Below the pieces are notes generated by a model. That model did no database searches. It worked only from the letters and a program-made list of their open reading frames with translations, and was not told the DNA's origin. Positions 10,320 to 57,007 of a stretch of DNA of 58,380 bases are shown piece after piece. Every line of letters begins with the position of its first letter. Within the stretch, counting starts at the first letter, position 1. The stretch is from positions 1-58,380 of the forward strand of contig MFGN01000003.1 of NCBI GenBank assembly GCA_001780285.1, written 5' to 3'. The stretch comes from Candidatus Falkowbacteria bacterium RIFOXYD12_FULL_34_57. GTDB lineage: Bacteria > Patescibacteriota > Patescibacteriia > Patescibacteriales > UBA12075. The translations under genes and the position numbers were made by a program.

Positions 10320-10330
10320 TTTTAAAAAAG

Positions 10331-10360
10331 AAGCCGTCTTTTATAAGACGGCTTTTGTAT
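10331..10360. terminator. Bidirectional intrinsic terminator between mtaB and the prkA operon
   Basis: AAGCCGTCTT (10331-10340), a four-base loop, then AAGACGGCTT (10345-10354), a perfect 10-bp stem. T-rich sequence follows on the plus strand and a T6 run follows on the minus strand. It can end both convergent transcription units. Confidence 0.92.
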
Positions 10361-10361
10361 T

Positions 10362-12572
10362 TTAAGCATTAAATAATTCATTATCCAGGGCATAAAGCGA
10401 TACACTTATTGCCCCTTCCTCTGTGTACCCGTATTTTTCTTGCAAATTTTTTATAAGCAATTTTACGCTATATTTTATTTTTTGATCGTAAGTCTCAAAC
10501 TTAGTGTCATTAAAATTGGCGATGGCATTTCTAAAATTTTCACTATCCTTTAGTGATGTAATAGATGTATCTTTTAGTTTGGAGATATAATTATTTTTTA
10601 GCGACAGAAAAAGATCCGCCTCCCCAATGCTTTTTTCTTCAATATTTATTTCTTGAAGTGTTTTTTGAACATATTTTTTTTGAATCGCTCTCCTGATTTT
10701 TTCATCTTTTTTTTCGAATAACTTTTTTTCAATAATATCAAAAAAATCTTCAGATGCTTTTATTTTTTCTCGAGTCCATGGACACACTTCTTCTGTGTCT
10801 ATTTCCATGTTGATGGCATAAAGATAATTCATAATATCTTTGTTTATCTGTTCCTCATTAAATTCATAAAGAGCCATTTTTATTTCTTCTGTGGTGGTGT
10901 AGTTATACATACTGAGCAGAGAGATGAAAAATTCTTTTTTTGGTATGGCTCTTAATGCTCTTTCTTTTTCTTCTTTGTCTTTTATGCTGTTTGCCAGTTC
11001 TGTTTTTTTTCTTTGAAGCTCAGCAAAAAAGAAATCAATATCTTCCATGGTTATTAATTTTTTAGATCCCCGGTGCTTGTTCATCAATTCTTTAAAGAGT
11101 TTTATTGAATCTCTCCCAGAAAGACCGAAATGACCGTCTTTTTCAGCTTCTTTCATAATCATTCGTCTTGTATCGGCTGTTAATTTTTTTCTATCTTCTT
11201 CCGATAACCAGGATGGTATTTTTCCACGATAAAGATCCATTTTAATTAAGAGCCCGTTTCCGTCTGTATATTTTTTATACTTTCCAATATCCCCCAGCCA
11301 TGTTTTTATCGCCTTGGAATCTTGATCCAATCTGGTAGAGACAATCATTTTGACAAAGTTTTTTAAAACCCTTGGCAGGAAATGCCTTCCAATATCGTGG
11401 CCAAATGCTTTTTCCAATATCTTTATTTCTACCGGAACTTCAGTAACATAAGTAACATCCAAATATTCTACCCTATCAGCAAAAGATTTTAAATCGCTGA
11501 TAGATTCCCAATCTTCCAAATTCATGATTACCAAAAGAAGAGAATTTACAGATTCTTCCTTGTGTCCAACTTTAAGTAGCGCCTCGCTTACAATATTGTG
11601 CAGTTTTCGCATTCGCTGCACATTATTATCCTTAATATCTGTTAAGACATATATCCCGTTATTGGTTTTGGCAAATGGAGAATAGGTGTATTGAACCTTG
11701 TTGCTGTCTTCAAAGAAATCAGTAATGATTTTCTGCAGCGGTTCATTGTCTAGTGTAAATTGTTTTATGGGCTCATCACCGGGTCCAAAAACAGTAATTC
11801 CGTTTCCAACCCTTCTATTAAATTTATTTTCTCGAACATTTATTCTTTTAAAAACTTCTTCAACGGAACCGAATTTTTTGGATAATTCATGAAAAAATGA
11901 TTCGCAAATTGCACATGGTTTGTATGAGAATATCCATTCGTACTCTTTGTTGTTAGCAATCTCGTGTTTGTCCTCGTTGTTTTCAAGAAGTCCGTCAAGA
12001 AATTCAGCTCGATGCTCTATCGGAATAATCATTATCGGGTGGTCGTGCGACGGGCAATGAATTTCTGAATAATCTTTTCCGTTATCATCCCCGGCACAAA
12101 CATCTTTTTCTTTTTTGGGAATACGCCAAACTATTTCATATGTTTTTCCCTCCGGTGAATTGGTATATTCGGTAATAAATTTTAACAGGTCGTCCATAAA
12201 TGTGCTTTTACCGCACCCCGGGGGACCTCTAAAAATATAAATTTTATTCTGAGTTGCTCCGATTTTCATCCCTTCTATCTTCTGTATAAATCTGTTAGCA
12301 AATAAGGTGTCGGGCATGAAAGTGTCAAAGATTTTAGAACAATCAATTTGATTAAAATTAATTGATTCCGGATCGTTATCCACCTCCTTCTTAACAGCGG
12401 ATACTATTCCGTCAGAAACAATCTGTTTTATGCATCTTAAGTATTTTTTAGGATTTTCTCTTACAAATTCAAAATATTTCTCCAGGGTAAGTATTTCATC
12501 TATTTTCGAGGAGGAATCTTTTGCAACTCGTGACAATACTTCATTTACGCTTTTCATGTCAATATTAGTCAT
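10362..12572 (-). CDS. prkA: PrkA family AAA+ protein 1 (divergent, with Cys/His metal-site motif)
   Basis: 736 aa. PrkA proteins have an AAA+ core and are described as a Ser/Thr kinase or an ATP-dependent protease. Walker A GPPGCGKST is at 116-124. HCPSHDHP (172-179) sits where the usual PrkA 'SPVYESPL' motif is expected. With Cys220-Ala-Ile-Cys223 it gives a possible zinc or redox site. The 'NNGIYVLTDI' and 'ADRVEYLDVTYVTEVPVEIKI' regions (about 304-384) match the PrkA sensor region. The C-terminal third is long and charged. It is the last gene of the operon, with AGGAGG five bases before the ATG. It is clearly paralogous to the first gene but far diverged, so the two probably have distinct roles in one complex (inference). 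Confidence 0.82.
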   Translation of the reverse strand: MTNIDMKSVNEVLSRVAKDSSSKIDEILTLEKYFEFVRENPKKYLRCIKQIVSDGIVSAVKKEVDNDPESINFNQIDCSKIFDTFMPDTLFANRFIQKIEGMKIGATQNKIYIFRGPPGCGKSTFMDDLLKFITEYTNSPEGKTYEIVWRIPKKEKDVCAGDDNGKDYSEIHCPSHDHPIMIIPIEHRAEFLDGLLENNEDKHEIANNKEYEWIFSYKPCAICESFFHELSKKFGSVEEVFKRINVRENKFNRRVGNGITVFGPGDEPIKQFTLDNEPLQKIITDFFEDSNKVQYTYSPFAKTNNGIYVLTDIKDNNVQRMRKLHNIVSEALLKVGHKEESVNSLLLVIMNLEDWESISDLKSFADRVEYLDVTYVTEVPVEIKILEKAFGHDIGRHFLPRVLKNFVKMIVSTRLDQDSKAIKTWLGDIGKYKKYTDGNGLLIKMDLYRGKIPSWLSEEDRKKLTADTRRMIMKEAEKDGHFGLSGRDSIKLFKELMNKHRGSKKLITMEDIDFFFAELQRKKTELANSIKDKEEKERALRAIPKKEFFISLLSMYNYTTTEEIKMALYEFNEEQINKDIMNYLYAINMEIDTEEVCPWTREKIKASEDFFDIIEKKLFEKKDEKIRRAIQKKYVQKTLQEINIEEKSIGEADLFLSLKNNYISKLKDTSITSLKDSENFRNAIANFNDTKFETYDQKIKYSVKLLIKNLQEKYGYTEEGAISVSLYALDNELFNA

Positions 12573-12581
12573 TTTTGCCTC

Positions 12582-14216
12582 CTAATTTTTCACTCTTCTG
12601 GCAAGCTTGCCGTTTTTCATAAGATATAATACTCGTATCGGTTTATATTTTATGGGGGAAGTGGGATCATATTGGTTTTTAGTTACAGAGTTCTGGTCAA
12701 CCTCAAATTCGGTTGTCTCCAACGCTACCGGCTGTCCCCATAAAAATTCTGTTCCCCTTAACACCCCATCAATATAGGGGGTGTGCAAAGGTTTTCCTTC
12801 AAACATATGCTCAATATACAGGGTACCATCCTTTTTTTGCCCCACTTCTATGTGGGGCGGATGATAAAGACCGTCAATTACCATTTTGCGATAATCTTCT
12901 CCCTTTTTACTTTTTATATAATAAATCCAGCTTCTTCTCTCTTCGTTGAACACTTTATCTGTTATCCAAAGCTTATTTTGTCGGACAAAATCCTGAAAAT
13001 TTTCTTTGGAAAGAAAGTTTAAAAGCATGAAGTCATTAAAATTTTCTCTGATATGAAAAATAAAACTGCGTCCCATTCCTGTTTTTTTGTCATATTTCAT
13101 TCTCTCTTTAGTATCAAGAGTGCGATCAAATTCTTTTGAAAGCTTACCCTTATTAGCCAGGTCCTCAATAAAACAAATTAATTTATATCCTAGCGCATAA
13201 GGATTAAGCCCAACTTTTGGCATGGTCATTACGCCCGAATTTACCCTGCTATAAATTACCTCGTTGGTAGAAAGCATGGGATCTTTTTCAAATAATTCTT
13301 GGTGCCAATAACTTGCCCAGCCCTCATTTATGATTTTGGTTCTGATTTGCGGCTGAAAATAGAGCGATGTTCTGCGCACTATTTCCATTACTTCTTTCAT
13401 CCATCCGTTTTCTTCTTTTTTTAAGAAATCAGAATGATTCATGATAAAAGAAATAATATCCAAATCTTCATTGCCCTTGTATTCTTTTTTATATTTCTTA
13501 TAAAACTCTTCAAACTCAGGAAACTCACTTTTAATATCGTGAAAAAATTCTTTGTTTCCCCGTTTTTCTCCAAAAGTTTTAATCTTTTCATTATATTTAT
13601 TGGTGAATTCTATCCATTTTTGAGAATTTGAATTTTCTCGTAAAAATTGTCCAAAAAAGAAATCTAGTTTGGATTGTGCCTGCGGTTCATTTTCCTTGTT
13701 CATTTCTTTGTAATATCCAACCAAATTATCCAAAGCACGAATAAATTCAATGACATAATCTACATATCTTTTTTTCTCGCCTAATTGGCGCCTAATTCTG
13801 TCAATAACAATTTTATCAGAATTGGCAATAGCCATGAAATCATCATCCCATGTATGCTTGAAAAAGACATTGTTTTGAAAAAAATCAATGTGTCCAAGTA
13901 CGTGGTAGAATATCATGACATTCAACCAATCTGGATTATTGTCATTGTAAAAGGATACTGCCGGACGAGTATTAATTACGGTTTCATACGGATTAGAGGG
14001 GTAATGTTTATACATCTCTTGTTCCTGATTTACCCTTATCCCATGAACCCAATAATCATACATAGTCGGAATCATTATTTTTGGCGACAATCTTAAAATA
14101 TTCTGATTTGTAACTATATACTCCAGAGTTTCATTGTCAAATTTCAAACCAGAGCTCCGTGCCTTTATTTTGCAACCTTCCATTAGGACTTTTGCTTCTT
14201 GATTAATTAATTCCAT
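12582..14216 (-). CDS. spoVR: SpoVR family protein
   Basis: 544 aa. The family is needed for spore cortex in Bacillus, but it occurs widely in non-sporulating bacteria next to prkA and DUF444 genes; its biochemical activity is unknown. Diagnostic segments are the N-terminal 'PYETVINTRP' (76-85) and 'YHVLGHIDFFQNN' (104-116, His105/His109). 'NEGWASYWHQ' (297-306), with Glu298 and His305, is the most conserved block. The conserved Glu and His residues could bind a metal. AAGGAG lies eight bases before the ATG, inside the end of the DUF444 gene, and only three bases separate the two genes, so translation is probably coupled. There is no sign of sporulation genes here, so a stress or stationary-phase role is more likely. 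Confidence 0.92.
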   Translation of the reverse strand: MELINQEAKVLMEGCKIKARSSGLKFDNETLEYIVTNQNILRLSPKIMIPTMYDYWVHGIRVNQEQEMYKHYPSNPYETVINTRPAVSFYNDNNPDWLNVMIFYHVLGHIDFFQNNVFFKHTWDDDFMAIANSDKIVIDRIRRQLGEKKRYVDYVIEFIRALDNLVGYYKEMNKENEPQAQSKLDFFFGQFLRENSNSQKWIEFTNKYNEKIKTFGEKRGNKEFFHDIKSEFPEFEEFYKKYKKEYKGNEDLDIISFIMNHSDFLKKEENGWMKEVMEIVRRTSLYFQPQIRTKIINEGWASYWHQELFEKDPMLSTNEVIYSRVNSGVMTMPKVGLNPYALGYKLICFIEDLANKGKLSKEFDRTLDTKERMKYDKKTGMGRSFIFHIRENFNDFMLLNFLSKENFQDFVRQNKLWITDKVFNEERRSWIYYIKSKKGEDYRKMVIDGLYHPPHIEVGQKKDGTLYIEHMFEGKPLHTPYIDGVLRGTEFLWGQPVALETTEFEVDQNSVTKNQYDPTSPIKYKPIRVLYLMKNGKLARRVKN

Positions 14217-14219
14217 TTA

Positions 14220-15524
14220 TTATGCTCCTTTTATTGAAGTAAGTTTTTTTATACCCTCAATTAGCCGTGTATCTCCAAAGTCAGGATGGTTGATTACATC
14301 AAGTTTTAAGAGGTCGCTATGAGTTTCCAGTATTTTTGAGGCTTTCAAGTAAACTTCTACTTCGCTTGGTTTATTTGTTCCGTAATTTGGCCTCACAATA
14401 GTGATTCCTAACCGATTAACCGTTTCTGTCATTTTTTTAATTTCGGCAATGGTTTCTTGTCCATCTTTATCCCAATCATCGCCATCAGTGCCGTGAAAGA
14501 CATAAATATTATAGTCTCGCGCCAACTCTTCTTCCGCAATTATTTTGTTTACAAGTTTATAAGCTGAACATACCTTAGTTCCGCCGGCAACACGCGACCT
14601 ATAGTAGGTGTCAAAATTAGGCACTTCTTTGGCTTCGGTGTCGTGAAGAATAAAACGGCTTTTTACCCGTTCTTTATATTCAAACATCAGCCAAGAATAA
14701 AGCAAAAGATGTTGAGTAACTACCGCTTTAGTAAGTTCTCCACTCATTGATCCTGAATAGTCCCGCAAAAGAAAAACAATCGCCTGAGATTCAAACTCCC
14801 TCTCCGCTGACAAAACTCGATACACTAGATCATTTGGTGCGATAATAAAATTTTCTGGATCAACATTATTCTTGTCTATCTTGCCAAGTGCGTTGTTGGT
14901 TTTTACAATTTCTCTCATGGTCGCTTTTTTGTCTAAAAATTGTCCAGACCTTCTGTTTTTATCGGTCAAATCGTACACATACTTAGTGGTGGGCATTTTT
15001 TTAGCTTTTTCTGTTAGGTTGGGCAATTGAAATTCTTCGGATAATTTTTTTCCCAGATCATAAGCTTGGGTTTCAATACCATGATCGCCGCCTTCGCCGT
15101 CGCCAGCTTCACCCTCGCCCTCACCCTCTCCTTCTTCGTCTATGGATTTTTCTCCAATAACATCTCCTTCTTCTCCTTCTCCCTGCCCGGCTTCTCCATC
15201 TTCTGTTGGGTTAAATTCTCCGTGAACCAATTTTTCTTCTTGTACCACTGGAATCAAAATAACTTTTCCGCTGCGAGTGGGCAGTTTGCCAACTTTAATT
15301 TTTTTAAGAAAACCATCCTTAACTCTTTGCTCATCGCGTTCAAGAAGTTCTTCCATGGTTTCCACAGAGCTTGCAGAGTTTGAGCCAGAAGGAATAAGAT
15401 TTGACAAGAGTTTAAGATCGTTGGGTTTGTAGATTTGCTGATATATGCTATTTTTTTCTCCCGACAATCTCTTAGCCTCTGCGAGGCCCAGAATATCAGA
15501 ATTGGTCATGCAACTATTATTCAT
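14220..15524 (-). CDS. DUF444 (YeaH/YhbH, UPF0229) von Willebrand factor A-domain protein
   Basis: 434 aa. An N-terminal region of about 100 residues is followed by a very acidic Gly/Glu-rich linker (about 103-150). The C-terminal VWA-type domain carries the MIDAS motif DYSGSM (255-260), with later 'GGTKVCSAY' and 'FHGTDGDDW' segments giving the remaining metal-site Thr and Asp. DUF444 is the usual third partner of PrkA and SpoVR; VWA partners of AAA+ proteins often act as adaptors (known for MoxR-type systems, inferred here). GAGGTG lies four bases before the ATG. It is preceded by a GC-rich hairpin that separates it from the first prkA. Confidence 0.92.
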   Translation of the reverse strand: MNNSCMTNSDILGLAEAKRLSGEKNSIYQQIYKPNDLKLLSNLIPSGSNSASSVETMEELLERDEQRVKDGFLKKIKVGKLPTRSGKVILIPVVQEEKLVHGEFNPTEDGEAGQGEGEEGDVIGEKSIDEEGEGEGEGEAGDGEGGDHGIETQAYDLGKKLSEEFQLPNLTEKAKKMPTTKYVYDLTDKNRRSGQFLDKKATMREIVKTNNALGKIDKNNVDPENFIIAPNDLVYRVLSAEREFESQAIVFLLRDYSGSMSGELTKAVVTQHLLLYSWLMFEYKERVKSRFILHDTEAKEVPNFDTYYRSRVAGGTKVCSAYKLVNKIIAEEELARDYNIYVFHGTDGDDWDKDGQETIAEIKKMTETVNRLGITIVRPNYGTNKPSEVEVYLKASKILETHSDLLKLDVINHPDFGDTRLIEGIKKLTSIKGA

Positions 15525-15566
15525 TTTTCACCTCTTGAAATTTGTGGGTTTACAGTCTAGAGAAAA

Positions 15567-15591
15567 GGGCCGGATATTAAATCTCCGGCCC
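15567..15591 (-). terminator. GC-rich hairpin between prkA2 and the DUF444 gene (partial terminator or mRNA stabiliser)
   Basis: GGGCCGGA (15567-15574) pairs perfectly with TCCGGCCC (15584-15591). On the minus strand only TTTTC follows, so termination should be partial. Such an element inside an operon would leave more prkA2 mRNA than downstream mRNA, or protect its 3' end. The high GC content stands out in this AT-rich genome. Confidence 0.6.
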
Positions 15592-15609
15592 CTCTGAGCT
15601 TGTGCTTCT

Positions 15610-17658
15610 TTATTCTTCATATGTGCAAAAAAATTCAATAGTTTTCACTGCACATGTCGGACAGTACCCAAGCTTGTCTATCATGCTTTTCATGATTTTT
15701 GTGTAAAGCTTTTCGTTTTCTTCATTTGTTCTATTGGCCAAGGCCCCGATTAAACTGCCGGCGCCGGCAATATCAGATTTAAGTCTGACATCTGTAACAG
15801 CTTTTATCAGTTCTAAATTATCCATAAAATCATAATTTCTATCGGTGGATAGTTTTTGTCCATAAATTTTTCGAACAGAGTTTCTAAATGTATCGCTTTG
15901 TTCGCGGGTTTTGAGGCCCAGCCTTGCTTCAACGCTCTGTATGAACTTTTCGTCAATTTTCAGGGGTTTGAGATCTCCTGTTTGAGGATCTTTATATTTC
16001 CACATTTTGTCCGGACCAAGATTTTCAGCATCAATACCGATAATCATGTTAACATAACGAAAAACATCTTTTTTAATCGCTTCCGGGTCGTCCATATAGG
16101 CATTGAACATGGTTTCCATAATCTTGTCTCTGTAAAGCTTTTTTGCATCATCAATATCTTTTTTATATTTCTCTCTTAGACCACTTTCATGGACATAGGT
16201 GAGAACCACTTTTTGTAAAGTATTAAAAATATCCAAGGCAAACATGCATTTGCCCTCACAGGTTTCATTTCTTTCCAGTAAAAGCTGAATAGCCCTTCCT
16301 AGATTCCTTTGTCCCAAACCCCTTTGTCCGAAATGTTTCGTGATATCCGGATTTTGTGCCAACTCATCAATAACCTCAATTAATGTTTTGGAGCTTTTTT
16401 CGCCGGCAATATCACCAGCTGCAAGCTTCATTGTTTCAATTGGGGTTAATTTATTGTTGTGCGGCAGCCTGGTCAGGATTACTCCGACAGAAGCGGCATA
16501 GTTCATATTTGGATCTTCATGCAGGGCATCCCCATTTACGGTGGTTTTCTTTTCTGTGCCCAGAGCATAACTGGTGAGCTTTTCTTGGAGTTTGTAGTCG
16601 GTATTATGTGATACATAACAAATTCGGCATCGATCAATAATCGGCGCCTCTGATCTTTCGGCTACAAAATTACTGAATTCATCGTTGTTTGATGTACCAA
16701 TAATCAACACATCAAGGGGCCATTTAAACCCATCGATTTCAATTGTTCTGTTTTGGATAACACCTAGATACACCTGAACCAAATCCTTTTTGTTTTTAAA
16801 GGTTTCATCTGAAAAATGAATCCCACCTCCGGCAACGCGAGCCAATGCCCCGCGCCGAAGATCAAATCTATAAGGATTGTCAGTATCTGAAATATGCAGA
16901 AGTCTTGGAATAGATTCTTCACCCAAAAGGTCAATGGAGGAAGATGTGATTTTATCTTTTGCCGGATATTTTCCTGTTACCGTACCAAGACTCTCGGTTA
17001 GGGGTACTGGAACGATTTTTATGAATTCCAGCATCTTAGCAAGATCACCTTCTGTATATTCCCTGATTTGATCCCATATATATCCTGAACAAGCTCCCAG
17101 GGGGCGATAATTTTTATAGAGTTTGCGAATATCTTCATCTTTAAATTTCATCCAATTTTGGAGTGCTTCCTGGCTCGCGCCTTTTGATTCCATAAGATTC
17201 ATAGCCAAAATCATGGGGTCTTCATAGGTCTGAGATTCAATTTTTTTAATTTTTCCGAATCCGCCCAGTTTTTCCAAATCCTTAAACTGGAAAGTATATT
17301 TTTTATTTTCCGGCAGAGAAAGAAATTCTCTGTAACGATTACAAAGATACTCCACAAAAAAAGTTTTTCCATTACCCGGTTCGCCAACCAGAATAAAAGC
17401 CATTTCTTTGGATGATCCACCTTCAGACGCATCTTTTACAAAAGATACAAATGAATTAATTTCCTCATAAAGTCCAACGAGGTGTTTACCTGGTGCGCGG
17501 AAAAATTTAAAATTGTTGATTTTTTTTCCAGCCCAAGTAATTGTTTCAACTCCGTCACTTAAAATCATTCTAGATACACCCTGAAAGGCATTTTCAAAAA
17601 CCTTTTTTCCACTCTTTACATCTTTCACATGCTGTTCTAGCGTAACAAGTTTACTCAT
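15610..17658 (-). CDS. prkA: PrkA family AAA+ protein 2 (first gene of the operon)
   Basis: 682 aa, closer to canonical PrkA in layout than its paralogue. Walker A GEPGNGKT is at 92-99. 'YEDP' (145-148) occupies the conserved position of the PrkA 'YESP' motif, and a later 'DRCRICYVSHN' region matches the 'DRIYIVKVPY' block. It lacks the Cys/His motif of the other paralogue, but its C-terminus carries CPTC (666-669) plus Cys678. AAGGAG lies seven bases before the ATG, an optimal site. Two promoters and a terminator-containing leader lie upstream (17700-17903). It is transcribed first and followed by a stabilising or terminating hairpin, so it is probably the most abundant product of the operon (inference). 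Confidence 0.86.
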   Translation of the reverse strand: MSKLVTLEQHVKDVKSGKKVFENAFQGVSRMILSDGVETITWAGKKINNFKFFRAPGKHLVGLYEEINSFVSFVKDASEGGSSKEMAFILVGEPGNGKTFFVEYLCNRYREFLSLPENKKYTFQFKDLEKLGGFGKIKKIESQTYEDPMILAMNLMESKGASQEALQNWMKFKDEDIRKLYKNYRPLGACSGYIWDQIREYTEGDLAKMLEFIKIVPVPLTESLGTVTGKYPAKDKITSSSIDLLGEESIPRLLHISDTDNPYRFDLRRGALARVAGGGIHFSDETFKNKKDLVQVYLGVIQNRTIEIDGFKWPLDVLIIGTSNNDEFSNFVAERSEAPIIDRCRICYVSHNTDYKLQEKLTSYALGTEKKTTVNGDALHEDPNMNYAASVGVILTRLPHNNKLTPIETMKLAAGDIAGEKSSKTLIEVIDELAQNPDITKHFGQRGLGQRNLGRAIQLLLERNETCEGKCMFALDIFNTLQKVVLTYVHESGLREKYKKDIDDAKKLYRDKIMETMFNAYMDDPEAIKKDVFRYVNMIIGIDAENLGPDKMWKYKDPQTGDLKPLKIDEKFIQSVEARLGLKTREQSDTFRNSVRKIYGQKLSTDRNYDFMDNLELIKAVTDVRLKSDIAGAGSLIGALANRTNEENEKLYTKIMKSMIDKLGYCPTCAVKTIEFFCTYEE

Positions 17659-17699
17659 TTTTTTTCTCCTTTTCTACATTTGACGCTTTGGTTTATGGG

Positions 17700-17728
17700 T
17701 TTTTATGGTTGTTAATTTTAATTGTCAA
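17700..17728 (-). promoter_or_regulatory. Proximal promoter P2 of the prkA operon
   Basis: On the minus strand: TTGACA (17728-17723), a 17-base spacer, TAAAAA (17705-17700). It lies downstream of the leader terminator and about 35 bases before the prkA2 ribosome site, so it would bypass the terminator. The -35 is perfect; the -10 matches four of six. Confidence 0.55.
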
Positions 17729-17795
17729 TGTACAAAAAATCCAGCGCGAAAGCTGGGGTCATTTTACTTTTTATAAATTTTTTTAGATATGCCAA
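17718..17795 (-). CDS. Possible 25-codon leader peptide upstream of prkA2
   Basis: A TTG at 17795 follows AAGGAGG by six bases and opens a 25-codon frame ending in TAA at 17718. The predicted peptide starts MAYLKKFIKSKMTP. The terminator hairpin (17741-17756) lies inside the frame, the geometry of an attenuation leader. Nothing in the amino-acid content (no run of one residue) names the signal. An alternative five-codon ATG frame starts right against the ribosome site with no spacing and is less likely. It may simply be the 5' part of a small RNA. Confidence 0.3.
   Translation of the reverse strand: MAYLKKFIKSKMTPAFALDFLYIDN
17733..17756 (-). terminator. Terminator-like hairpin in the prkA leader
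   Basis: On the minus strand CCAGC-TTTCGC-GCTGG is followed by ATTTTTTGT. This is a short intrinsic terminator or attenuator between the distal promoter P1 and the operon. Transcripts from P1 that stop here would be about 135 bases long. Confidence 0.6.
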
Positions 17796-17821
17796 GACAT
17801 CCCTCCTTGTTATCTAATAGC

Positions 17822-17838
17822 TTTGTAAGTCTTACAAA
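17822..17838. promoter_or_regulatory. Perfect inverted repeat in the prkA leader (operator-like)
   Basis: TTTGTAAG-T-CTTACAAA is a perfect 8+8 palindrome with a one-base centre, just downstream of the expected P1 start. The spacing suits a dimeric repressor site; as RNA it could form only a tight hairpin. No regulator gene is adjacent. Confidence 0.5.
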
Positions 17839-54535: not shown

Positions 54536-57007
54536 TTAACTAGCCCTGGTTTGTAAATGATGATAGGGTGGATTTTTTTTGTATCTTTCAATTGCCAATC
54601 TGATTATTTCTTCTAATAAATTAGCATAATTCATTCCGGAAAACTTAGCGGCTTGTGGTCCAAAATTTTGAGCACCAAGCCGCGGATTAGTATTTAGTTC
54701 GAGGATATAGGGATTATTATTTTTGTCTATTTTTATCTCTACCGCCCCGTAATCATGACAATCCAAAATATTGTAGGTATCTATTGCAATTTCTGTAATT
54801 AAACTCATTAATTTACTGCTCATTTTAACTGGTGGAATTTGGGTAATTATTTTTTCTTGATATATTTTATCGCGTCCAAGCTTGGATTTCATTGTTTTTA
54901 TATGCCAATAATTTTCCGGGAGGTTGGAAAATATAGTTCTGCTTAGTGGCAAGACCTTAAAATTTTTTTCATCGTTACCCATAATAAAGGCGTCATATTC
55001 GTCACCATCGACATATTCTTCAATTAAAACAGGGCTGCCCAAATCTTTTATTATATATTTTATTCGTTTATCCAACTCTTTACGATTTTTAACAATTGAA
55101 TCATTAGTAATACCGACCGAATTATCAGTGTTGGCTGGTTTTACAATCATAGGAAACTTTAAACTTGAATCAACTTCGTCATCAAGACTATACACATAAT
55201 CCCAGGCCGGTGTTGGTATATTGTGAAAACTAAGCAATTTTTTAAATTTAATTTTATCCTGGCAGAGAGCTAGGGTAATTGGATTTGAACCGGTGTAGGG
55301 AATTTGTAAAATATCAAAAGCACTAGCGGCGTGAGGCTTTAGAAGGCTGGAATCATTGATTCGCTCACAAATGTTAAACACTAAATCAACTCTGCTTTTA
55401 TTTAAATCATTTATAGCTTTTTGTGGAAAATTAAAATCAAACAAAGAGACCTTATATCCAACTTCTGTTAAAATTTTCGCAATATTTTTTCCAATTTCTA
55501 TTTGTTCATTGGTGTTATTGCTACTATTATCCAGCGAGTAATCATTGCCAACGATCCCAATATGAAGTTTTCGTTGTTGTGCCAAGGGGATTGATCTTAT
55601 TTTTTCTATTCTTTCTTTGCCGATAAATTTTTTATTAACCGAAAAAACGGCATTTTTATTTTTTTCCTGCCTGATTGTCTTGCCCATAGACGATGATTCA
55701 TCAAATTTAACCACGCTATAATTTATTTTCTTCAATACCCGCTTTAGTTTATCGCTAGCATCAACCGGATTGGGACCACTAACAGACAACCAACCCATAT
55801 ACTCATAACCAAATGGCGGTGCCAGTACACTGTCTCCAACTTTTTTGTAAATCACTAAATTCTCTAAATATTTATTATTTTTAATTTCATTGTCGATTTC
55901 AATTTTGGAAACCACGCCCGAATATGGTGCGTGCATCGTTTCTCCGGCAAAATATTTTCTGGGGTATTTGTTTTTATCTACTTTTTTTAAATGAACCCTG
56001 GTTGCAATTTTCATAGCCCCCTCAATTAAATCCACACCCCAGGCCTCTTTTGCAAAATAATAAGCCTCATCCCCACCCATACGCAAATTGATTTCCAGGG
56101 GCATTGGTCCTCTTTTTGTCGACTTGGCCTCAAACTGAAGACAGCCGTTCTGTATATTTAAAACTTCTAAAATTTCATCGGCCATGTCAATCAAGTCCTT
56201 TTTTTGTGAATCTAGCAATGCGGAGGGTTCAGTCATGCCGGTTTCAATAAAAAATGGTTCATCGGTTTGATGGTTATCAGTAATATTATAAAATTTTATT
56301 CGGCCATTTTGAACTAAAATGTTGATATCAACCTCATCTCCATCAATATATTCTTCAGCCAACAAGGTTGAAATTGAACCAAGAGAACTATCTATTTTTT
56401 TAGAAATATTCTTTCTGATATAGTCATAAGTATCTTGTAGGGCGACATGGTTATTAACTTTTATTACAAAAGCGCTGGCTGCTCCATAAATCGGCTTTAA
56501 AACAATGGGGAATTCCAACTTTTCCCGAACATGAATCAAATCAGCTCGGTTGTTTATTTTAAAATATTTTGGCGTAGGAAGATTATTTTTTGCACAAAAT
56601 TCACGAAATCTATATTTGTTTCTAGCCAAATCAGCCACCTTGAAAGGTATACCAGCCAACTTCAATCGTTCGGTTACTTTAGCTGTAAGCAATACCGTAT
56701 CCTCGTGAAAAGTTACCGCCCCATCAATTTTTATTTCAGGATGATTAGAAATAAATTCTTCAATTACTCTAATAGTCTTATCATGTTCAAATAATTCTGA
56801 GAGAATCCAATGCTTAATACATTTTTGTCTTATATTTATTTCTTTACTTACCGCAATTACATTAATCCCCATTTCTCCGATTCGCTTTAAAATAAATTTA
56901 AAATCTTCGGTTCCCGTGCTGCTGGATGAACCGGTATTTAAAAATAAAATTGTTTTGTCTCGCAATGAATTTTCTATTGAATTATTAAAAATATTCTTTT
57001 TATTCAT
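54536..57007 (-). CDS. Fused double ATP-grasp ligase
   Basis: 823 aa. The N-terminal half (about 12-420) is an ATP-grasp ligase of the carbamoyl-phosphate/L-amino-acid ligase type. It shows 'FPIVLKPIYGAASAFVIKV', 'AEEYIDGDEVDINIL' and 'LEINLRMGGDEA', the last typical of L-amino-acid and carnosine-type ligases. The C-terminal half (about 490-815) is D-Ala-D-Ala-ligase-like with 'IPYTGSNPITLALCQDK', 'MIVKPANTDNSVGI' and 'LELNTNPRLG'. Both catalytic cores look intact. The product may form two successive amide bonds, for example a short peptide or a peptidoglycan side-chain unit (inference). It follows an L,D-transpeptidase gene by 61 bases on the same strand. The true ddl is elsewhere (44 kb), so this is not the housekeeping enzyme. 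Confidence 0.85.
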   Translation of the reverse strand: MNKKNIFNNSIENSLRDKTILFLNTGSSSSTGTEDFKFILKRIGEMGINVIAVSKEINIRQKCIKHWILSELFEHDKTIRVIEEFISNHPEIKIDGAVTFHEDTVLLTAKVTERLKLAGIPFKVADLARNKYRFREFCAKNNLPTPKYFKINNRADLIHVREKLEFPIVLKPIYGAASAFVIKVNNHVALQDTYDYIRKNISKKIDSSLGSISTLLAEEYIDGDEVDINILVQNGRIKFYNITDNHQTDEPFFIETGMTEPSALLDSQKKDLIDMADEILEVLNIQNGCLQFEAKSTKRGPMPLEINLRMGGDEAYYFAKEAWGVDLIEGAMKIATRVHLKKVDKNKYPRKYFAGETMHAPYSGVVSKIEIDNEIKNNKYLENLVIYKKVGDSVLAPPFGYEYMGWLSVSGPNPVDASDKLKRVLKKINYSVVKFDESSSMGKTIRQEKNKNAVFSVNKKFIGKERIEKIRSIPLAQQRKLHIGIVGNDYSLDNSSNNTNEQIEIGKNIAKILTEVGYKVSLFDFNFPQKAINDLNKSRVDLVFNICERINDSSLLKPHAASAFDILQIPYTGSNPITLALCQDKIKFKKLLSFHNIPTPAWDYVYSLDDEVDSSLKFPMIVKPANTDNSVGITNDSIVKNRKELDKRIKYIIKDLGSPVLIEEYVDGDEYDAFIMGNDEKNFKVLPLSRTIFSNLPENYWHIKTMKSKLGRDKIYQEKIITQIPPVKMSSKLMSLITEIAIDTYNILDCHDYGAVEIKIDKNNNPYILELNTNPRLGAQNFGPQAAKFSGMNYANLLEEIIRLAIERYKKNPPYHHLQTRAS

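Follow-up and report, generated by a model that had tools for sequence, protein, structure and literature searches.

PrkA, DUF444, and SpoVR proteins occur widely and are important in stress and sporulation, and their joint mechanism is unsettled. In the canonical system, represented by YeaG-YeaH-YcgB of Escherichia coli and by PrkA-YhbH-SpoVR of Thermomicrobium (locus L109), one PrkA gene stands before a DUF444 and a SpoVR gene. Here we describe a locus at positions 10362 to 17658 of a 58,380-nucleotide (nt) stretch of DNA (hereafter, the window) from Candidatus Falkowbacteria bacterium RIFOXYD12_FULL_34_57 (contig MFGN01000003.1), a member of the Candidate Phyla Radiation (CPR). The same three families are present in the same 5′ order, PrkA-DUF444-SpoVR, and a second PrkA gene is added at the 3′ end. 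This four-gene cassette is conserved across several phyla and in a phage, alternates with the single-PrkA form, and encodes two PrkA proteins that differ in a fixed way at their active sites.

E. coli YeaG requires its Walker A lysine K116 and works with YeaH in nitrogen starvation (PMC4664914); we checked the numbering, and K116 is the Walker A Lys. Mutants of yeaH and ycgB have in common a sensitivity to antimicrobial peptides (PMC2375023, where this is partly unpublished). In Bacillus anthracis, PrkA plays a role in sporulation and osmotic stress, and kinase and protease activities were undetectable (PMC13001217).

Paired prkA genes near these partners in haloarchaea, which a first-pass annotation of the window had mentioned, are indeed reported: there, DUF444 and SpoVR genes accompany two adjacent kinase genes (Anderson et al. 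2011, PMC3102087). The window shares this composition but, compared by the described gene order, the haloarchaeal PrkA genes lie side by side, whereas those of the window flank DUF444 and spoVR. The DUF444 search matched a Haloferax control genome under the NF003712 cutoff that the window protein passes, and a haloarchaeal origin of the window cassette is unlikely. No paper on a bacterial cassette with a flanking PrkA pair was found in the open-access literature, most subscription journals being outside this scope. The flanking-pair cassette is a widespread variant, different from the haloarchaeal arrangement of 2011. Assignment as an anti-phage defense system was rejected, given that PADLOC returned just a weak PtuA match to the ATPase loop (E 0.0048).

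Organization of the four-gene cassette

Four complete open reading frames (ORFs) occupy 10362 to 17658 on the minus strand, each with a family match in Pfam. In transcription order, with lengths in amino acids (aa), they are as follows.

15610..17658, minus strand: prkA1, first gene, 682 aa; AAA+ PrkA paralogue with Walker A GEPGNGKT (92-99), Walker B DE (284-285), sensor Asn 324, and Arg finger 343
14220..15524, minus strand: DUF444 gene, 434 aa; von Willebrand factor A (VWA) protein of the NCBIfam NF003712 type, with a metal ion-dependent adhesion site (MIDAS) motif DYSGS (255-259), T316, and D347
12582..14216, minus strand: spoVR, 544 aa; putative metal-site protein with HVLGHID (105-111) and NEGWASYWH (297-305)
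10362..12572, minus strand: prkA2, last gene, 736 aa; second AAA+ PrkA paralogue with intact Walker A, Asp 312 in place of the Walker B Glu, CPxH (173-176), and CxxC (220-223)

The order is therefore prkA1-DUF444-spoVR-prkA2; the first-pass annotation had swapped the middle pair, giving prkA2-DUF444-spoVR-prkA1. The genes are separated by gaps of 85, 3, and 9 nt, and the genome (1.6 Mb) contains exactly two PrkA-domain genes, prkA1 and prkA2. Other genomes of its phylum measure about 0.6-1.7 Mb at high completeness, as fits CPR.

Two PrkA paralogues with different invariant active sites

Both PrkA proteins combine an AAA+ domain with the PrkA C-terminal domain (PF06798, 2.3e-32 and 9.8e-36), and both match the solved PrkA 9xip. 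AAA_PrkA passed its cutoff with 38.5 bits for PrkA1 and, in a genome-wide search, with 28.5 bits for PrkA2. The predicted structure of PrkA2 is a confident AAA+-like model (predicted local distance difference test [pLDDT] score of 88.9), and its sequence profile matches 9xip at 3.9e-32, so that the assignment to PrkA, which the first-pass annotation had proposed to check by fold, stands for the second paralogue as well. PrkA1, PrkA2, and canonical PrkA form three separate supported groups in a tree, and the canonical PrkAs compared, from patescibacteria and phages, share ~22% identity with PrkA1.

The two proteins differ where ATP hydrolysis is catalyzed. PrkA1 has a complete AAA+ site (Lys98/Thr99, Asp284-Glu285, Asn324, and Arg343), each residue being kept in 70/70 homologues. 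In PrkA2, the Walker A residues Lys122 and Ser123, the sensor Asn351, and the Arg finger Arg367 are likewise each present in 60/60 homologues, whereas the position of the catalytic Walker B Glu is occupied by Asp312 in all 60, with non-acidic residues preceding it. Canonical PrkAs, when aligned, carry ExxE in the Walker B stretch. The CPxH and CxxC residues of many canonical PrkAs are kept in PrkA2 and not in PrkA1.

These residues also bear on whether PrkA1 and PrkA2 could be serine protein kinases acting in a cascade, as their database names, and the term kinase-like for the C-terminal domain, would have it. The K426A variant of E. coli YeaG is non-functional (PMC4664914), which would fit such a role. 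B. anthracis PrkA, however, has neither detectable kinase activity nor a kinase P-loop (PMC13001217), and the conserved residues of both PrkA families include those of the AAA+ site. We regard a kinase cascade as very unlikely.

Conservation and distribution

A pattern-guided scan with tblastn confirmation gave 429 bacterial relatives, and we retrieved the best 80 of these. The choice of patterns was steered by constructed rows (A1 and A6, the window DUF444 with non-motif residues replaced), which were used for patterns only, and each returned locus was then checked by tblastn with the unaltered window sequence and confirmed. Because A6 favors DUF444 of near-window type, the sample of 80 loci carries a bias. 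All four genes are present in 60 of them, and every one of these 60 keeps the same order and strand; this conservation of order is far beyond chance. Most of the other 20 loci are cut by contig ends, and L055, L061, L065, and L083 are partial or rearranged. No conserved neighbors beyond the four genes were found across the loci, only lineage-specific ones. The first-pass annotation had linked two strongly diverged PrkA paralogues at the cassette ends with DUF444 and SpoVR, and had named beforehand their failure to co-occur in relatives as the result that would overturn the idea. The two are together in 60 complete cassettes from several phyla.

The same annotation had treated the cassette as special to CPR genomes, which is not supported. 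The cassette is mainly of Desulfobacterota type and rare in CPR: its hosts are mostly Desulfobacterota, joined by Fibrobacterota, Krumholzibacteriota, Gemmatimonadota, Acidobacteriota, Neomarinimicrobiota, and Parcubacteria GW2011_GWA2_38_13b. Window PrkA1 shares ~70% identity with the Desulfobacterota proteins, 61% with that of a phage, and 56% with that of the Parcubacterium. Since cultured Desulfobacterota (for example, Desulfobacter vibrioformis, Desulfopila aestuarii, Desulfatibacillum alkenivorans, and Geotalea) carry the cassette, it is testable outside CPR. In the window's own family, PrkA1 was found in 0/11 other genomes. In its order, a DUF444 of NF003712 type occurs in 2/111 genomes, the second being G816, which has the full cassette on a 65-kb contig. 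Across 380 genomes of its phylum there were four DUF444 matches, of which only the window's reaches the NF003712 cutoff; the other three loci all have SpoVR, and two (L015 and L017) also have the canonical single PrkA, which means that the phylum has both forms. A plasmid search with PrkA1 gave no match.

We searched 14 genomes in full. Two PrkA genes are present in 13, the remaining locus lying on a short contig that ends inside the cassette, and in 12/12 with a complete cassette these two are the only PrkA genes. In the Desulfobacterota sample, PrkA-domain genes were found in 20/148 genomes, as either canonical genes or diverged pairs, and in none of these 20 does a canonical PrkA accompany a two-PrkA pair. 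Compared with the PrkA-DUF444-SpoVR system, the window has DUF444 with VWA/MIDAS beside PrkA and SpoVR in the operon, but in place of a single PrkA subunit it has two. As the same holds for all 12 genomes with a complete cassette, the locus is a variant and not a plain member of that system. In one deltaproteobacterial metagenome-assembled genome, the whole cassette occurs twice in tandem (L030:1472-15001), the second copy being truncated where the stretch ends.

Phage and divergent cassettes

Single-protein scans of a viral collection gave no match, the chosen peptide patterns not being conserved. The pattern-guided scan with tblastn revealed the cassette in a phage contig (L020) as well, with gene order and strand unchanged, at identities to the window of 61% for PrkA1, 50% for DUF444, 45% for SpoVR, and 30% for PrkA2. 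The contig (L020/L021) further holds RecT, exonuclease, primase, and tail-chaperone genes. Between its prkA1 and DUF444 lies a gene for a ClpP-family protease (L021:12065-12631; PF00574, 7.9e-18; PHROG 1827, “ATP-dependent protease,” 194.6 bits). PHROGs 22605, 19072, and 35217, all of unknown function, match PrkA, DUF444, and SpoVR. The canonical PrkA-DUF444-SpoVR triple was also seen in viral sequences, namely L011 (LR756511.1, a 595-kb phage record) and L025 (a 107-kb viral contig from IMG/VR).

The protease gene raises the question of whether PrkA is an unfoldase feeding a peptidase, or is itself a Lon-like protease. The best fold match of the PrkA2 model is the Lon-like protease MtaLonC (E 6e-4, with a low template modeling [TM] score), and Bacillus subtilis PrkA has been reported as a protease, as cited in PMC13001217. 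Nevertheless, a ClpP-like gene is present in 0/80 of the bacterial loci, clean B. anthracis PrkA showed no protease activity (PMC13001217), and ClpP-like genes are common in phages as head-maturation proteases. An ATP-dependent protease is thus an improbable account of the cassette.

A very divergent PrkA-DUF444-SpoVR-PrkA cassette was found in a genome of the Desulfobacterota sample (G672, L112:2965-10642). It has the four-gene order of the window, and its 3′ PrkA likewise has Asp at the position of the Walker B Glu, but its first PrkA groups with canonical PrkA. For this reason it is probably an independent two-PrkA system, although the long branches call for caution.

DUF444 and SpoVR

The DUF444 protein matches PF04285 (9.4e-38) and passes NCBIfam NF003712 with 539 bits against a cutoff of 421. 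Its annotation as a MIDAS-type VWA protein is borne out by the MIDAS residues, which are kept in 83/83 DUF444 proteins. NF003712 (PRK05325.2-4, “hypothetical protein”), of which the window protein is a member, carries no functional name. The distribution suggests that NF003712 marks the two-PrkA cassette, and the cassette in turn suggests a meaning for this family and for the three PHROG families of unknown function.

SpoVR matches PF04293 (7.1e-58). In its HxxxHxD and NEGWxxxxxH motifs, the residues H105, H109, D111, N297, E298, G299, W300, and H305 are invariant (67/67). In the predicted structure (pLDDT 81.6), the first motif lies on helix 96-115 and the second on helix 294-311. The model found no fold match in the Protein Data Bank (PDB; best E 0.8), and with no such match the idea of a known peptidase fold for SpoVR was rejected.

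Proposed mechanism

AAA+ ATPases that act with VWA partners include MoxR/RavA-ViaA and BchI-BchD, in which an AAA+ ATPase and a MIDAS-containing VWA protein are encoded in a single operon, as in the window. The AAA+ proteins of the window belong to the PrkA family, with its own C-terminal domain, and not to MoxR, so that the analogy extends to the working principle only.

We read the cassette as the PrkA-DUF444-SpoVR stress system in a two-motor form. PrkA1, with its complete ATPase site, and PrkA2, with Asp for the Walker B Glu, would form one mixed AAA+ ring, in which PrkA1 would hydrolyze ATP while PrkA2 would bind ATP, turn it over slowly, and supply asymmetry or a docking face. DUF444 would be the VWA (MIDAS) adaptor coupling the ring to SpoVR, as with MoxR/BchI-type AAA+ proteins, and SpoVR would be the metal-site protein that is remodeled or switched on, with starvation or envelope stress as the probable setting. 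The evidence pointing this way comprises the order kept in 60/60 cassettes, the phage and G816 cassettes, the sole PrkA pair in 12/12 genomes, the lack of a canonical PrkA beside a pair in the 20 PrkA-positive Desulfobacterota genomes, the three supported PrkA groups, the want of other conserved neighbors, the antimicrobial-peptide sensitivity common to yeaH and ycgB mutants, the differing and invariant active sites, MIDAS in 83/83 DUF444 proteins, and the SpoVR residues in 67/67. Several points weigh against it. Hydrolysis may survive an Asp at the catalytic position, and the Walker B of canonical PrkA, with its ExxE, is unusual in its own right. The SpoVR metal site is proposed from conservation, and the model matches no solved enzyme. 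In addition, a hairpin between prkA1 and DUF444 (described below) may make the four gene products unequal in amount. On balance this two-motor mechanism is the best supported of the readings considered, and we place it about midway between doubt and acceptance; the hetero-oligomeric AAA+ machine of the first-pass annotation is plausible.

Two separate homo-oligomeric PrkA machines could instead share one DUF444 and one SpoVR, with different triggers or substrates, as a case of subfunctionalization with no mixed ring. Walker A, the sensor Asn, and the Arg finger are kept in both PrkAs, canonical systems run on one PrkA, so that a homo-oligomer suffices, and the hairpin after prkA1 would permit separate control. 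However, on long enough contigs neither PrkA occurs alone, save in the few partial or rearranged loci named above (L055, L061, L083, and L065), and the Walker B change of PrkA2 is invariant, with a similar change in the 3′ PrkA of G672. Separate machines are accordingly an unlikely arrangement, yet one to be taken seriously.

The mixed-ring mechanism can be carried further, to a PrkA machine that is an obligate hetero-AAA+ assembly, has one subunit deficient in hydrolysis, and replaced the single-PrkA system in several phyla and some CPR; a phage would have captured it together with a ClpP-type protease. This extension is tentative and, in our estimate, rather doubtful. If it is true, PrkA would be an asymmetric two-subunit motor, which would give a direct experimental handle on the unknown job of PrkA. 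A naturally split PrkA, with one full and one altered ATPase site, lets mutation separate the motor role from the partner role.

Transcription and translation signals

Three further features accompany the genes.

~15564..15590, minus strand: terminator-like hairpin in the prkA1/DUF444 gap; -22.8 kcal/mol, z -4.15
17741..17756, minus strand: leader hairpin with T-run upstream of prkA1, a possible attenuator; -10.9 kcal/mol, z -2.7
about 10329..10356, no single strand: bidirectional terminator that ends the operon and a convergent MiaB-like gene

The hairpin in the 85-nt gap has the form GGGCCGGA-9nt-UCCGGCCC, followed by the T-rich tail UUUUCUCU. Because it is strong, transcription may partly stop there and prkA1 may outnumber the other three products; related loci showed no hairpins of terminator type in the matching gaps. 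The proposal of a single minus-strand unit agrees with four genes on the same strand that share an end terminator, and is qualified by this possible partial stop. Each of the four start codons has a Shine-Dalgarno motif ahead of it (AGGAG, AGAGG, AGGAG, and AGGAGG), the one of DUF444 being weaker, where the first-pass annotation had described optimal ribosome sites.

In the prkA1 leader (window 17659-17822, minus strand), a short TTG-started ORF overlaps the terminator-like hairpin, and attenuation is possible. A comparable hairpin lies ~100 nt ahead of prkA1 in locus L118. An Rfam scan returned only HrrF at chance level (E 0.054), far under the HrrF cutoff.

Evolutionary history

In a four-gene tree, the three CPR sequences (window, G816, and the Parcubacterium) and the phage stand apart from 30 other bacteria with a support of 96.8. 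The cassette has therefore either spread by transfer or is ancient, with patchy loss. A recent transfer from Desulfobacteraceae, of which the PrkA1 tree gives a weak hint, fails in the four-gene tree, where CPR and phage are apart.

The absence of the cassette from 11 other genomes of the family, and relatives that are mostly Desulfobacterota, are also what a binning or assembly contaminant would produce. The cassette, however, lies inside a 58-kb contig, and its GC content of 36.2% is near the 33.0% of the remaining window and inside the range of the other ORFs. Moreover, G816, of the same order, and the Parcubacteria genome (61-kb contig) have it too, and the approximately unbiased (AU) test does not reject a tree that unites the three CPR sequences in one clade (p 0.96). 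Contamination is therefore exceedingly improbable.

Elsewhere in the window, at 54536-57007, an 823-aa protein resembles two ATP-grasp (D-Ala-D-Ala ligase-like) halves in a single chain.

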